DNA from: Streptomyces canus
GTDB lineage: Bacteria > Actinomycetota > Actinomycetes > Streptomycetales > Streptomycetaceae
Direction: 5' to 3'
DNA: 64,000 nt
NCBI RefSeq assembly: GCF_030816965.1
Contig: NZ_JAUSYQ010000002.1
Location: 4,373,001 to 4,437,000, forward strand
Shown: in pieces, positions 1 through 3,366 of the stretch
Position numbering within the stretch: position 1 is the first letter of the stretch
How the letters are laid out: the number at the start of each line of letters is the position of its first letter
Position numbers and translations under genes: made by a program
Notes under the pieces: model-generated
Database searches by the model: none
The model's input: only the letters and a program-made list of their open reading frames with translations
Told to the model about the DNA's origin: nothing

Positions 1-667
1 CGTGCCCGGTCAGACCTCCGACCGGCACGTGGTCGTCGACGATGATCACCAGTGGGGAACGGCCGTACGTCGCTGCTCGCAGCCGTATGAGCAGCTGCGG
101 GCGCAGTTCGTTCGCCCACTCCGTGCCGTCGCCCTCGATGACGTGGCCCCGGCTCGGCTGAAGGCCTCTTTCGTCCGTCACCAGCCGACGCACGCCCGCC
201 TCGGAGTCCAGGACGACGACGCCGGTGTCCATCGCCTGCCGCACGGCGAGCAGTGCCGTGGTGTAACGCCCCGAGCCGGGGGCTCCACGCAGCACCGCGA
301 TCCCGTGTCTGGTCAGGTGGTCGACCAGAGCGATGTGCGCGGCCGGTGCCACGTACAGCTCGCGCAGCCGGTCCAGGTCGTCCTCCGGGACCCGGCCGTC
401 GACAGGGTCGACGGCCGGGGTGCCGTAGTAGTTCTTGTAGATCGTCCCGGCCGCGTCACCGCTGCCGAAGCCGACGGCTCTCGCCTTGACTCCCCCGTCG
501 ATGACTGTCTGCGCCAGGCCCCGTTCCCGCAACTGCCGGATGTGATCGACCTGTTCGTCGGTCGTCTCCGTGCCGGCGGGTGTGGATGCGGCCTCCTCCT
601 CATCGGCGGACGGCTCAGCCGGAAGCGGGTCCATGCGTTCGCTCACGGGTTCGATCTTGTCGTCCAT
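1..667 (-). CDS. P-loop NTPase with shared FGSGDAA motif (3' end outside window)
   Basis: The visible 222 codons start at an ATG 13 nt downstream of the cyclase-like gene, so the two are probably co-transcribed. Residues 1-50 are acidic and low in complexity. Residues 67-82 hold a motif F-G-S-G-D-A-A-x-T-x-x-K-x-Y-Y-G that also ends the upstream protein. A Walker A-like loop GAPGSGRYT follows at about 128-136, and LVIIVDD near residue 207 reads as a Walker B strand. The protein continues past the window edge, so its C-terminal domains are unknown. The layout (short motif, then NTPase) is that of a STAND/NLR-like sensor, which is inference. No signal peptide or membrane segment is visible, so it is likely cytoplasmic. 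Confidence 0.75.
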   Translation of the reverse strand, partial: MDDKIEPVSERMDPLPAEPSADEEEAASTPAGTETTDEQVDHIRQLRERGLAQTVIDGGVKARAVGFGSGDAAGTIYKNYYGTPAVDPVDGRVPEDDLDRLRELYVAPAAHIALVDHLTRHGIAVLRGAPGSGRYTTALLAVRQAMDTGVVVLDSEAGVRRLVTDERGLQPSRGHVIEGDGTEWANELRPQLLIRLRAATYGRSPLVIIVDDHVPVGGLTGH

Positions 668-680
668 GTTTCACGCACCA

Positions 681-1433
681 TCACCCGTAGTACTTCTTGT
701 GCATGGTCCTCGCCGCGTCGCCACTGCCGAAGTGGAAGACGCCGCCCTTGTTCTTCTTCACCACGTTGGTGGGCGCGGGGGCCGCGGCCTCCTCCGGCTC
801 CGGGTCGGCCACGAGCGGCTCCAGCTCCTCCCGGCCGTGCTCCGGTACGTGGATCCAGCCGTAGCCGCTGAACTCCTTCTGGTGAACGTGCACCCTGACG
901 TACCGACTCGGATCCAGGCCCTGGCCCTCGCCTCGGAGCCGGACCACGTCCTGGTAGACCCGGTCGGAGACGATCAAGGCGAGATCGGTCGAGGCTAGAG
1001 CCTCCAGCACCCGCTTCAGCTGGGGCGCGTTGAGATAGCGGGCCACGGAGACGGGGGCGGGCCCGCTGTAGCCGAGAGCGGCCGTGCGGGCCACGCCGAA
1101 GTCGATGGCGAGCCGGAGCCGCATCCGCTCTTCTTCGGTGCGGTTGGCGTTGCGCTCGCCGAGCCGGACGGCCAGGTTCCGTACAAAGCCGCCGAGTACC
1201 ACCGGTTCCTGGGTTTCCAGCGGCAGGACGGCGAATTCCTGATCGCCTTGCGGCTGACGTTCCCAGGCCGTGCGGTCCAGGCCGCTGAGCACCGCCGCCT
1301 CTTCCAGCACCCGCACCAGGTCGGCTTGGCAGGCCTCCTGGCTCGGGGTGTCGAGGCGGCTGTACTTCTCCACATCGGCAGCCATGCACAGATGCCGCGT
1401 GATGATCTCCTGCGAATGTGATTGCGATGTCAT
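681..1433 (-). CDS. nucleotide-cyclase-homology protein with C-terminal FGSGDAA motif
   Basis: This 250-residue protein starts at an ATG; a longer TTG start at 1478 is less likely. Residues 14-200 resemble the cyclase-homology domain common in actinobacterial signalling and conflict proteins: the first strand reads MAADVEKYSR, and later come an AIDFGVART strand and an SVARYLNAPQLKRVL helix. I cannot show that the catalytic metal and base-binding residues are complete, so it may be a binding domain and not an enzyme. A Glu/Pro/Ala-rich linker leads to the last 16 residues, FGSGDAARTMHKKYYG, which match a motif in the neighbouring NTPase. The gene lies between a Crp-type regulator and that NTPase on the same strand, suggesting one signalling unit. 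Confidence 0.7.
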   Translation of the reverse strand: MTSQSHSQEIITRHLCMAADVEKYSRLDTPSQEACQADLVRVLEEAAVLSGLDRTAWERQPQGDQEFAVLPLETQEPVVLGGFVRNLAVRLGERNANRTEEERMRLRLAIDFGVARTAALGYSGPAPVSVARYLNAPQLKRVLEALASTDLALIVSDRVYQDVVRLRGEGQGLDPSRYVRVHVHQKEFSGYGWIHVPEHGREELEPLVADPEPEEAAAPAPTNVVKKNKGGVFHFGSGDAARTMHKKYYG

Positions 1434-1557
1434 GGCTCGGTCACCCGTCTGCCTTGGTCGAACGAGGTCGGGCGTCAACTGTGCGCCCGGAGGCGGGGAA
1501 CACCGAGTGGGTCGTAGAAATACGGTTTTCGGCAGGCGGTGCGGGCGACGGCCCCTG

Positions 1558-2325
1558 TTACGGAACGGCCGCGGGCAGCTGGGCGATTTCCCGCAGCCGA
1601 TTCAGGTCGAGGACAGTGGTGCGGCGGTAGCCGGTGGTGATGAGTTCGTCTCTGCGCAGTTCGGCGAGCGCCTTGTGGATGGTGACCTCCGCCGAGCCGG
1701 TGAGCGCGGCCAGTTCCGGCTGGGTGAGGTCGACCCCTATGACTAGCCCACGCGGCACCGGATGCCCGTACGAGGTCGCCAGCTCGGCGAGCACGCGGGC
1801 AAGCCGCACCTTGACCGGATACCCCCCGAACTCCACTCGCCGTTGGTTCGACCAGCGCAGCCGCTGCACGACGATCCGGTTGACCGCGCGCGCCGCCTCG
1901 GGGTGGGATTCGAGGAAGGACCGGAGGTCGGACTCGCGGACGATGCTGGCGACGATCTCTCCGCAGGCGGTGACCGTGGCCGACCTCGGCGCACCGTCGT
2001 CCATGGCGGCCATCTCCCCGACTATGTCTCCTCCGACCCGGATGGCGAGCAACGCCTCGTGGCCGTTGTCCAGGCGAGCGGTGACCTTGACGAATCCGGA
2101 GCGCAAGAGCACCACATGGTTGGAGAAGTCACCCTCACGGATCAGGATCTCTTCGGGTCGGTAACGGCAGCGGGTACCGATCCCGAGCAGCTTGGTGCGG
2201 ACGGGTTCCGACAGGCCCCCGAGGAAGCTGCGGGCGGGCCACCCCTCCAGGCCCTGGGATGGGGACTGCGGCGTCAAGGGCGCTCCTCTCCTTCTCCGCA
2301 CCGCTTTGATCTGTTTCTGATCCAT
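1558..2325 (-). CDS. Crp/Fnr family transcriptional regulator
   Basis: The 255-residue protein has a cyclic-nucleotide-binding beta barrel at about residues 40-150 and a Crp-type winged helix near 175-245 (LTQPELAALTGSAEVTIHKAL is the recognition region). The phosphate-binding cassette GEMAAMDDGAPRSATV keeps the Gly-Glu and Arg-Ser-Ala pattern of cAMP-binding Crp proteins, so a cyclic nucleotide ligand is plausible. It sits 124 bp upstream of the cyclase-like gene on the same strand, making a possible nucleotide-sensing operon. The N-terminus carries a basic stretch (KAVRRRRG) ahead of the sensor. The start is an ATG at 2325, and the promoter region is shared with the divergent Uma2 gene. Confidence 0.85.
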   Translation of the reverse strand: MDQKQIKAVRRRRGAPLTPQSPSQGLEGWPARSFLGGLSEPVRTKLLGIGTRCRYRPEEILIREGDFSNHVVLLRSGFVKVTARLDNGHEALLAIRVGGDIVGEMAAMDDGAPRSATVTACGEIVASIVRESDLRSFLESHPEAARAVNRIVVQRLRWSNQRRVEFGGYPVKVRLARVLAELATSYGHPVPRGLVIGVDLTQPELAALTGSAEVTIHKALAELRRDELITTGYRRTTVLDLNRLREIAQLPAAVP

Positions 2326-2576
2326 GCGAATCAGCTGTTCCAGAGAAGCAGTTGTCTGGGGACCAGGGCAGAGTGCGCGGAGGGTCTACTTGATGCGCTG
2401 GGCGCGCGCCAGGGGCGCACACCAGATCGATGAGCGCCCATGCAGCAGCCTCGGCTACTACGCGGATGCCAGCCGACGGGGAGGGCGTGAGCGAGATCAG
2501 CCTGCCGGACGGATGGCAGACAGTACGCTGATTCCAGCGGGATCGGGCCCGCAGCACAGTGTCCGGGAGGTGCTTC

Positions 2577-3143
2577 ATGACGGCCGAGATGGTGGCCCCG
2601 GCGTGGATGCATGAGCAGATCACGGCGGAGGAGTACGAGTCCTGGTCCGAGGAACAGTGCGCCGGCATTGAGATCGTGGACGGGATGGTCGTCGTGAGTC
2701 CGAGTGCGTCCAAGCGGCACAACAGGCTGGCCCGGATTCTGGCGAACGCCCTGGATGCCGCCTCGGGCCCGGAGTGGAACGCCGACACCGACTTCGACGT
2801 CCGGCTTCAGGACGTTCCGCTCACCAATCGCCGCCCTGACGTCGTCGTGTACCGCGCAGACACGCTCGACATCACCCCGACCCGCCCTGAGCACGTGCTG
2901 CTGGTCGCGGAGGTGGTGTCGCCAGGCTCGGAGACCACCGACCGGATCGTAAAGGTCGACCAGTACGCCAAGGCAGGCATCGGCTTCTACTGGCGCATCG
3001 AGCAGGCCGCGACAGGCGTTCCTCTCGTGTACACCTACCTTCTCGACCCCGCGACGAAGACCTACCGGGACGGAGACATGTTCACCGGCGTCCTCAAGGT
3101 AGTGGCCCCCTTCGCGGTGGAGATCGACCTCGGCCAGATCTGA
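2577..3143 (+). CDS. Uma2 family endonuclease (DUF820)
   Basis: The 188-residue product has the PD-(D/E)XK nuclease layout of the Uma2/DUF820 family. An N-terminal EIVDGMVVVSP strand supplies the first acidic residue, NRRPDVVVY the catalytic Asp, VAEVVSPGS the Glu, and RIVKVDQYAKAGI the Lys helix. These proteins are abundant in Streptomyces and cyanobacteria; their cellular role is not established. The ATG is preceded by GGGAGG at six bases spacing, which decides this start over one 18 bases upstream. It is divergent from the Crp-type regulator and followed by a strong terminator. Confidence 0.85.
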   Translation: MTAEMVAPAWMHEQITAEEYESWSEEQCAGIEIVDGMVVVSPSASKRHNRLARILANALDAASGPEWNADTDFDVRLQDVPLTNRRPDVVVYRADTLDITPTRPEHVLLVAEVVSPGSETTDRIVKVDQYAKAGIGFYWRIEQAATGVPLVYTYLLDPATKTYRDGDMFTGVLKVVAPFAVEIDLGQI

Positions 3144-3305: not shown

Positions 3306-3347
3306 CTCCTAAAGCGGGTGTCGCAGGTTCGAATCCTGCCGGGGGCA
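3306..3347 (+). other. 3' half of a tRNA-Arg(CCT)-like gene, probable attR site
   Basis: The stretch contains an anticodon loop CTCCTAA, the 3' anticodon strand AGCGG, a complete T arm (GCAGG, loop TTCGAAT, CCTGC) and the 3' acceptor strand CGGGGGC with discriminator A. The sequence to the left does not supply the 5' anticodon strand, D arm or 5' acceptor strand, so no complete tRNA can fold. Integrases that target tRNA 3' ends leave exactly this kind of duplicate at the far end of the inserted element. By orientation the element lies to the left (1-3305) and the intact tRNA would lie beyond the window start. Bases 3283-3296 are a near-perfect inverted copy of 3333-3345, so the junction can also form a hairpin. 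Confidence 0.65.
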
Positions 3348-3366
3348 CCCCGCATGACCAGGCGCT

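Follow-up and report, generated by a model that had tools for sequence, protein, structure and literature searches.

A matched short motif on a class III cyclase and its neighbouring P-loop protein in Streptomyces: a possible amyloid-type route to a cyclic nucleotide signal

In the bacterial amyloid signalling motif (BASS) systems described so far, BASS 1-10, NLR sensors are paired with BELL, CHAT or TIR effectors, and the known effectors carry the motif at their C-terminus (PMC7889193). The same account treats what amyloid signalling leads to in filamentous bacteria as a subject for future study and, in its available text, reports no cross-seeding between the motif families of the fungal amyloid signalosomes. 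Effector-associated domains (EADs), in the description of PMC8195603, infrequently link inactive STAND proteins with cyclic nucleoside monophosphate (cNMP) cyclases. The logic of a matched element on sensor and enzyme is therefore already known, from BASS (PMC7889193) and from EADs (PMC8195603), as far as these sources describe it. Here we analyzed an operon of Streptomyces canus that begins within a stretch of 64,000 nucleotides (the window; assembly GCF_030816965.1, contig NZ_JAUSYQ010000002.1, positions 4,373,001 to 4,437,000), in which a Crp-type regulator is followed by a class III cyclase-like protein and a P-loop protein, hereafter the partner, and in which the last two share a 16-residue motif. 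By analogy with the prion-type arrangements of fungal and bacterial immunity, this matched-tag layout suggests that a sensor switches on a second-messenger alarm.

The locus resembles BASS 1-10 in its matched C- and N-terminal motif, its predicted disordered tails, its many motif families and its occurrence in filamentous actinobacteria, and BELL-like proteins (a label given by description) occur in some related loci. It differs in the nature of the effector that bears the motif, a class III cyclase, which is not listed in the available text of PMC7889193. In addition, the P-loop of the window partner is degenerate, related loci contain two-motif adaptors, and the amyloid character is presumed. 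With Pycsar (PycC with PycTM or PycTIR) it shares a class III-fold cyclase and a cyclic nucleotide-binding (CNB) protein beside the cyclase, and a PycTM-like protein was encoded within four genes of 61 of 120 related cyclases according to a profile built here. Unlike in Pycsar, the CNB protein belongs to the Crp transcription factors, the cyclase has a distinct partner coupled to it by the motif, and the PADLOC PycC profiles gave no match to the window cyclase down to E 0.1. Inactive STAND (iSTAND) and other vWA-MoxR ternary conflict systems (Kaur et al. 2020, 2021), as portrayed in PMC7159879 and PMC8195603, also combine an inactive STAND-like sensor with an enzyme, infrequently a cNMP cyclase, that shares an adaptor element with it, and some related systems are linked to CRP-like regulators. 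In contrast, the shared element here is a 16-residue, predicted disordered motif rather than a folded EAD or death-like domain, and no MoxR or vWA match was found among the eight window-segment proteins scanned with Pfam. The fungal NWD2/HET-S and PNT1/HELLP pairs, as outlined in PMC7889193, likewise consist of an adjacent sensor and effector with a common short templating motif, although their effector is a membrane-targeting cell-death protein, whereas the cyclase here is an enzyme that would make a diffusible signal.

The original prediction, made from the window sequence, claimed that the C-terminus of the cyclase and a segment near the N-terminus of the partner agree at 12 of 16 positions; this agreement was confirmed. 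The two coding segments are identical at 39 of 48 bases, and five of the 12 identical residues are encoded by different synonymous codons, indicating that the pair is not a fresh copy. When the cyclase tail was shuffled 20,000 times and compared with a partner orthologue that is 96% identical (P0121), no shuffle exceeded 8 matches of 16. A motif profile of 24 positions, built from 20 short sequences, recovered the cyclase (E 4.8e-14) and the partner (E 3.6e-13) from the 10.66-Mb genome; the next match had an E value of 0.35, and no third copy was found in that genome by this profile. Across 295 Streptomyces genomes the profile matched in two (the own genome and G478), each time solely at the adjacent pair.

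Protein searches yielded the best 120 of 222 cyclase relatives and at least 41 relatives of the partner. The motif pattern was present in all 39 closest listed cyclases (P0001-P0039) and absent from the other 81 of the 120, which have other tails. The two partner homologues that lack it among 41 are a fragment without an N-terminus and a divergent form. In the 39 cyclases, mean pairwise identity fell from 0.81 in the body to 0.53 in the linker and rose again to 0.76 across the 16-residue motif; in 38 partners it was 0.30 in the N-terminal tail, 0.38 in the linker and 0.74 in the motif. AlphaFold2 confidence (pLDDT) was below 50 at residues 223-250 of the cyclase and 52-88 of the partner. By these predictions, the motif lies in disordered, poorly conserved linkers outside the folded domains of both proteins. 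The two circumstances named beforehand as unfavorable, a longer structured domain common to both proteins and absence of the motif from orthologous pairs, were not encountered, the former as far as prediction can tell. The BASS-like layout proposed in the original prediction, in which one protein ends in the motif and the adjacent protein has it near its N-terminus, stands as a specific, conserved and predicted disordered feature.

The window motif is one of many interchangeable versions across the cyclase family. Alignment A1 contains 23 paralogues, 53-62% identical to the window cyclase, whose short C-terminal tails differ. The family was detected in 73 of 150 Streptomyces genomes by a profile search (E<=1e-10), and a phylum-wide sample of 296 genomes contained eight strong matches (E<=1.5e-24), six in Streptomyces and two in other families of the class, as well as 13 weaker ones. 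Genes of the related loci (numbered with the prefix L, L002 being the locus of the window itself) were called by a home-made codon-score caller, which misplaced some starts. This gave 128 cyclase genes in 126 of 134 loci, or 120 after removal of identical or contained ones; the eight loci without a cyclase call, including L153 (genome G377), were left out. Because the loci are related by descent, the locus counts are not independent.

We compared 114 cyclase tails with the N-terminal 160 residues of the proteins encoded within three places (shuffle floor p 0.005). Forty-eight tails matched a neighbour at shuffle p<=0.01, where about one was expected, and in 43 of these the matching protein was the product of the next same-strand gene. 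The score of the own neighbour was reached by none of ten random other loci's neighbours for 41 of the 48 tails and by one or two of ten for the remaining seven. The significant tail of L190 depends on a doubtful small gene. In a set of 30 cyclase-partner pairs, the own score was 51, compared with 31 for the other pairings; permutation gave p 5e-5, the lowest value attainable, and 18 of the pairs were individually significant at p<=0.01. The own partner ranked first against those of other subfamilies in 11 of 30, a figure explained in part by subfamilies that share a motif class. Both tests used a milder mask that was picked after the result of the first masked test, whose stricter low-complexity mask had blanked Gly/Asn-rich motifs. 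An initial tail-neighbour scan, in which 12 of 53 own scores exceeded 68 compared with loosely chosen controls (mean 42, 99th percentile 68), was replaced by the masked tests because several of its matches were compositional; the L048 tail scored 87 in that scan versus at most 51 in controls and was not significant in the 114-tail test.

Individual pairs illustrate the exchange of motifs. L168 contains GDQHGVSGGQVTGDV in both the cyclase tail and the partner, and L037 pairs VDARGAVFGFGS with VDASGAAFGFGA. By eye, SQYVHQGAAVG-type tails pair with QWADYGVNVG in a 90-101-residue neighbour (L103-L113 and L117), and the SGRDTNVWK tail of L123 pairs with AMRDVNIYT; among loci of the former type, L034, L035, L107, L108, L111 and L112 were also significant in the 114-tail test. 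A member of the partner family was encoded within four genes of 68 of the 120 cyclases (profile built here). Elsewhere the gene next to the cyclase encodes a NACHT-type ATPase over the Pfam cut-off (L044) or a TPR protein with AAA_16 matches under the cut-off (L048 and L049). PycTM was recognized by Pfam in two representatives of related loci (E 5e-20 and 1.2e-7). We regard the motif pairing of cyclase and partner as close to certain.

Four loci (L066, L067, L070 and L072) encode a 77-110-residue protein with two motifs. Its N-terminal half matches the N-terminus of the neighbouring STAND-type ATPase (p 0.001, the floor, in four of four), and its C-terminal half matches the cyclase tail (p 0.001, 0.002, 0.014 and 0.001), while the crosswise comparisons of the halves were not significant (lowest p 0.086). 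For one of these proteins the called start was too early and 33 residues were cut. L165 provides a fifth case by profile and by eye; the adaptors of the five loci measure 73-110 residues. In these five loci, a STAND-type ATPase and the cyclase appear to be connected through a small protein with two motifs. In L066, L067, L070 and L165 the gene after the cyclase encodes a 138-152-residue protein that ends in a cyclase-like motif, as seen by eye in three loci and at p 0.005 in L165. A region related to the N-terminal part of this protein is fused within the cyclases of the GRDTNVYK class, which are 348-375 residues long (profile E values between 6.4e-9 and 1.9e-4 within a small protein set), and a similar protein occurs in L077 (E 1e-5). 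We call these small, helical proteins BELL-like after the description in PMC7889193, as far as that description goes, and not on the basis of a profile.

In the loci with RHIM-like tails (L034, L035, L103-L113 and others of L101-L124), the cyclase is mostly followed by an 80-100-residue motif protein and, further downstream, mostly by a protein of about 210-280 residues, an HTH_17 protein and a 370-385-residue protein without a Pfam match. Several of these loci encode, upstream of Crp, a 1479-1487-residue protein with AAA_16/nSTAND-type matches under the cut-off. A DUF4407 protein recurs downstream in one operon subtype (L042, L037 and relatives; 9 of 120 loci), with a Pfam E value of 2.6e-51 in L042.

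The window cyclase has, by sequence or model, the class III catalytic fold, and its catalytic residues (Table 1) were assigned by a profile alignment of modest confidence to the canonical motifs; G63 is invariant in 120 of 120 homologues, as are both metal aspartates. A search of solved structures by sequence with the cyclase profile returned one weak, irrelevant match. Catalysis by the window protein is rather likely. The Crp regulator matches cNMP_binding (E 4e-18) and HTH_Crp_2 (E 9.4e-14) in Pfam, and its CNB part matches the PADLOC PycTIR model (E 4.1e-19). The intact cyclic nucleotide cassette ascribed to it was borne out, since the CNB domain, the phosphate-binding Glu, Arg and Ser, and the HTH are all present; in 45 operon-linked Crps the cassette has Arg in 44 of 44 and Ser in 42 of 44 readable rows, with Glu in 37 and Asp in seven. 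A Crp gene lies within four genes of 104 of the 120 cyclases and immediately upstream on the same strand of 91 (profile built here). We had considered uracil specificity by analogy with PycTIR, from a Crp Asn at the position of EcCRP S128 (counted along the helix), and dropped it: because mycobacterial Crp/Fnr proteins in the PDB also have Asn there, it allows no conclusion about the base.

The predicted structure of the partner comprises a disordered N-terminus, a P-loop domain and helical (HEAT/ARM-like) repeats, and the matches listed by Foldseek were for the most part proteins with HEAT/ARM-type or other helical repeats, whose TM scores did not exceed 0.22 of the query. Its Walker A sequence is GAPGSGR, with Arg in place of Lys; a VDD (Walker B) is present in the window form. 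As to the NLR/STAND-like NTPase of the original prediction, the P-loop domain is there in degenerate form, and an nSTAND3 match was weak and under the Pfam cut-off (E 0.0015); with its degenerate P-loop, the window partner is not a typical NLR.

In the mechanism that we propose, the partner would sense an invader or damage and then assemble, its N-terminal motif would nucleate a cross-beta, BASS-like template, and the C-terminal motif of the cyclase would join that template. Because class III cyclases act as dimers, clustering could then switch cNMP synthesis on. The cNMP would act on Crp and so on operon expression, perhaps via the palindrome between the Crp and cyclase genes. It would also act on the PycTM-like membrane protein whose gene adjoins the operon, leading to growth arrest or cell death. 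By analogy, sensing most likely falls to the partner and the role of signalling effector to the cyclase, because the cyclase carries its motif at the C-terminus, as do the BASS effectors known from PMC7889193 in its available text, and retains its metal residues. We give the whole chain, from partner through cNMP to Crp and PycTM, a probability of roughly one in two; the amyloid nature of the paired motif is rather likely, slightly less so than catalysis.

Several observations weigh against this chain. Sixty-six of the 114 tails had no significant partner, including those of L044 and L049, which had matched no neighbour in the first scan either; the significant tail of L188 looks compositional; and under the stricter mask only 8 of the 30 cyclases had their own partner in first place, although permutation again gave p 5e-5. 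The motif of the window carries charge (RTMHKKYYG), and the Pfam amyloid-motif models gave no match among the 31 motifs scanned. The PycTM-like gene of the window locus (L002 9102-9641) is on the opposite strand, and its product is under the Pfam cut-off (E 0.015; PADLOC E 3.3e-6). In the partner family, the Walker A position is Arg in 60, Lys in six and Ala in four of 70 readable rows; in the alignment, the Walker B acid is missing from most relatives. ATP-driven assembly is therefore doubtful. Because of this predominance of Arg and loss of the acid, the partner is closer to the inactive STAND sensors that Kaur and colleagues characterized (PMC7159879 and PMC8195603) than to an ATP-switching NLR. 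Finally, the base-contacting Lys position of the window cyclase is Gln60 and the canonical transition-state Asn position is Val128 (Asn in 27 of 120 homologues), so that no particular cNMP can be assigned as the product, and the enzyme may have lost its activity.

These two substitutions are also what favors a catalytically dead scaffold or nucleotide sensor that signals by protein contact only, and inactive cNMP cyclase domains have been reported in vWA conflict proteins (PMC7159879, in part). We consider this unlikely, given that D20, G63 and D64 are invariant in the 120 homologues and R132 is kept in 118 of 119, that a Crp with an intact cassette adjoins in most loci, and that described pyrimidine cyclases also have non-canonical base-contact residues, according to the available part of PMC11224242. 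A somewhat less improbable alternative concerns the motif itself, which may be a matched, non-amyloid docking peptide, the tails acting as short linear motifs that bind one another or the same third protein and so keep cyclase and partner together in one complex. The tails are indeed short, matched and predicted to be disordered, the window motif is charged, and the known EAD systems have matched non-amyloid adaptor domains on sensor and enzyme, as PMC8195603 describes them. However, the motif profile found no third copy in the own genome, several other motifs of the family are, by eye, rich in Gly, Asn and Val, and the near-identity of the two sides is less expected for docking on a third partner than for templating. 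The cyclase-like motif that also ends the BELL-like neighbour in four loci is, moreover, the arrangement described for BASS in the accessible part of PMC7889193.

A housekeeping or developmental cAMP-Crp regulator without a role in defense would fit the operons of L074, L075, L087, L089, L091 and L162, which, judged by eye, lie next to rpsL (mostly also rpsG) in a seemingly fixed place, several of them with a large rpoC-like gene flanking the opposite end; the location of the window copy, by contrast, is island-like. We rate this as doubtful as a dead cyclase, because the family is present in 73 of 150 Streptomyces genomes only and the window subtype in 2 of 295, motifs and partners turn over, PycTM neighbours occur, and the window copy is located between tRNA-Arg repeats. 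That the likeness arose by chance or through recent copying of a short tract, a notion favored by the small size of a 16-residue motif, can be practically dismissed in view of the shuffling result, the synonymous codon differences and the conservation of the motif in divergent orthologues of both proteins.

The features of the locus are collected in Table 1. A same-strand Crp regulator had been noted upstream of the other two genes, and three minus-strand genes were indeed found; the missing 3' end of the partner gene was recovered to the left of the window, giving a complete gene for 709 residues (L002 10538-12667, genome C2:4371538-4373667). The order of Crp, cyclase and partner is the same in all six window-type loci, namely L002 and L093-L097 (S. 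spinosus, S. macrolidinus, Streptomyces sp. NRRL F-5135, S. thermodiastaticus and S. tailanensis), and the opposite-strand PycTM-like gene is present in five of the six. The operon extends past the window, with the PycTM-like gene among its neighbours, and the other downstream genes encode one OmpA-like protein and two further proteins (Pfam, eight proteins of the window segment). An SPFH/Band-7-like label, given by eye to the conserved gene 3' of the partner, was discarded, since Pfam gave no such match.

Table 1. Features of the window locus (window coordinates unless stated otherwise)
Feature	Position	Strand	Remarks
Crp-type regulator, cNMP-binding domain and HTH_Crp_2	1558..2325	-	Pfam; true start codon may lie further inside
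Phosphate-binding cassette of Crp, GEMAAMDDGAPRS	1981..2019	-	Conserved in operon-linked Crps
Candidate operator, CGTA-N4-TACG palindrome	1512..1525	.	In the most strongly conserved stretch between the Crp and cyclase genes
Class III cyclase-like protein, 250 aa, ATG start	681..1433	-	
Putative metal aspartate D20 of cyclase	1374..1376	-	D in 120/120 homologues; aligns with Asp of canonical FxDLVG
Putative metal aspartate D64 of cyclase (GD)	1242..1244	-	D in 120/120 homologues; aligns with canonical GD
R132 of cyclase, transition-state arginine position	1038..1040	-	R in 118/119 readable; aligns with Arg of VNVAAR
C-terminal paired motif of cyclase, FGSGDAARTMHKKYYG	684..731	-	Kept in 39 closest listed relatives
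Degenerate P-loop partner, N-terminal 222 of 709 residues	1..667	-	Remainder at genome C2:4371538-4373000; recovered in L002
N-terminal paired motif of partner, residues 67-82, FGSGDAAGTIYKNYYG	422..469	-	39/41 homologues
43-bp exact copy of tRNA-Arg 3' end	3306..3348 (genome 4376306-4376348)	+	Possible right att-like edge

The palindrome is readable in all six window-type loci, with perfect arms in five and one arm altered in L097, and we infer that it is a candidate Crp operator. An intact tRNA-Arg(CCT) lies at genome C2:4367241-4367314 (L002 6241-6314), 9.0 kb to the left of the 43-bp copy, which ARAGORN reads as a short (64-base) tRNA-Phe. Between the repeats lie about 9 kb with the module and a Uma2-type gene, and the repeat pair is a possible mark of site-specific integration. 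No integrase was found among the eight segment proteins scanned with Pfam, and no empty att site was found in eight loci having the right-flank gene, the fetched stretches of which contained no tRNA; the island reading therefore draws on the 43-bp repeat itself. Within the bracketed segment, a gene for a Uma2-family putative endonuclease (window 2559-3143, Pfam E 9.2e-20) is divergent from Crp.

What appears to be new is a short amyloid-type motif on a cyclase, exchanged across a family that usually has a Crp and frequently PycTM neighbours, together with the two-motif adaptors; we found no description of the combination of amyloid-type motif, cyclase and Crp or PycTM in the open-licence literature. 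A diffusible cNMP would be a measurable, amplifying output of amyloid signalling, and one enzyme body with many interchangeable tags would allow a clean test of motif specificity and insulation. The two-motif relay is a possible general design; RHIM relays operate in necroptosis, and the adaptors would be a bacterial parallel. More tentatively, these operons may represent an actinobacterial immune class in which prion-like templating gates a class III cyclase, with varied sensors and sometimes a relay adaptor, and in which the cNMP drives Crp and PycTM killers. If this is true, amyloid signalosomes and Pycsar-type second-messenger defense would be joined in one pathway, and motif identity would keep parallel pathways separate.

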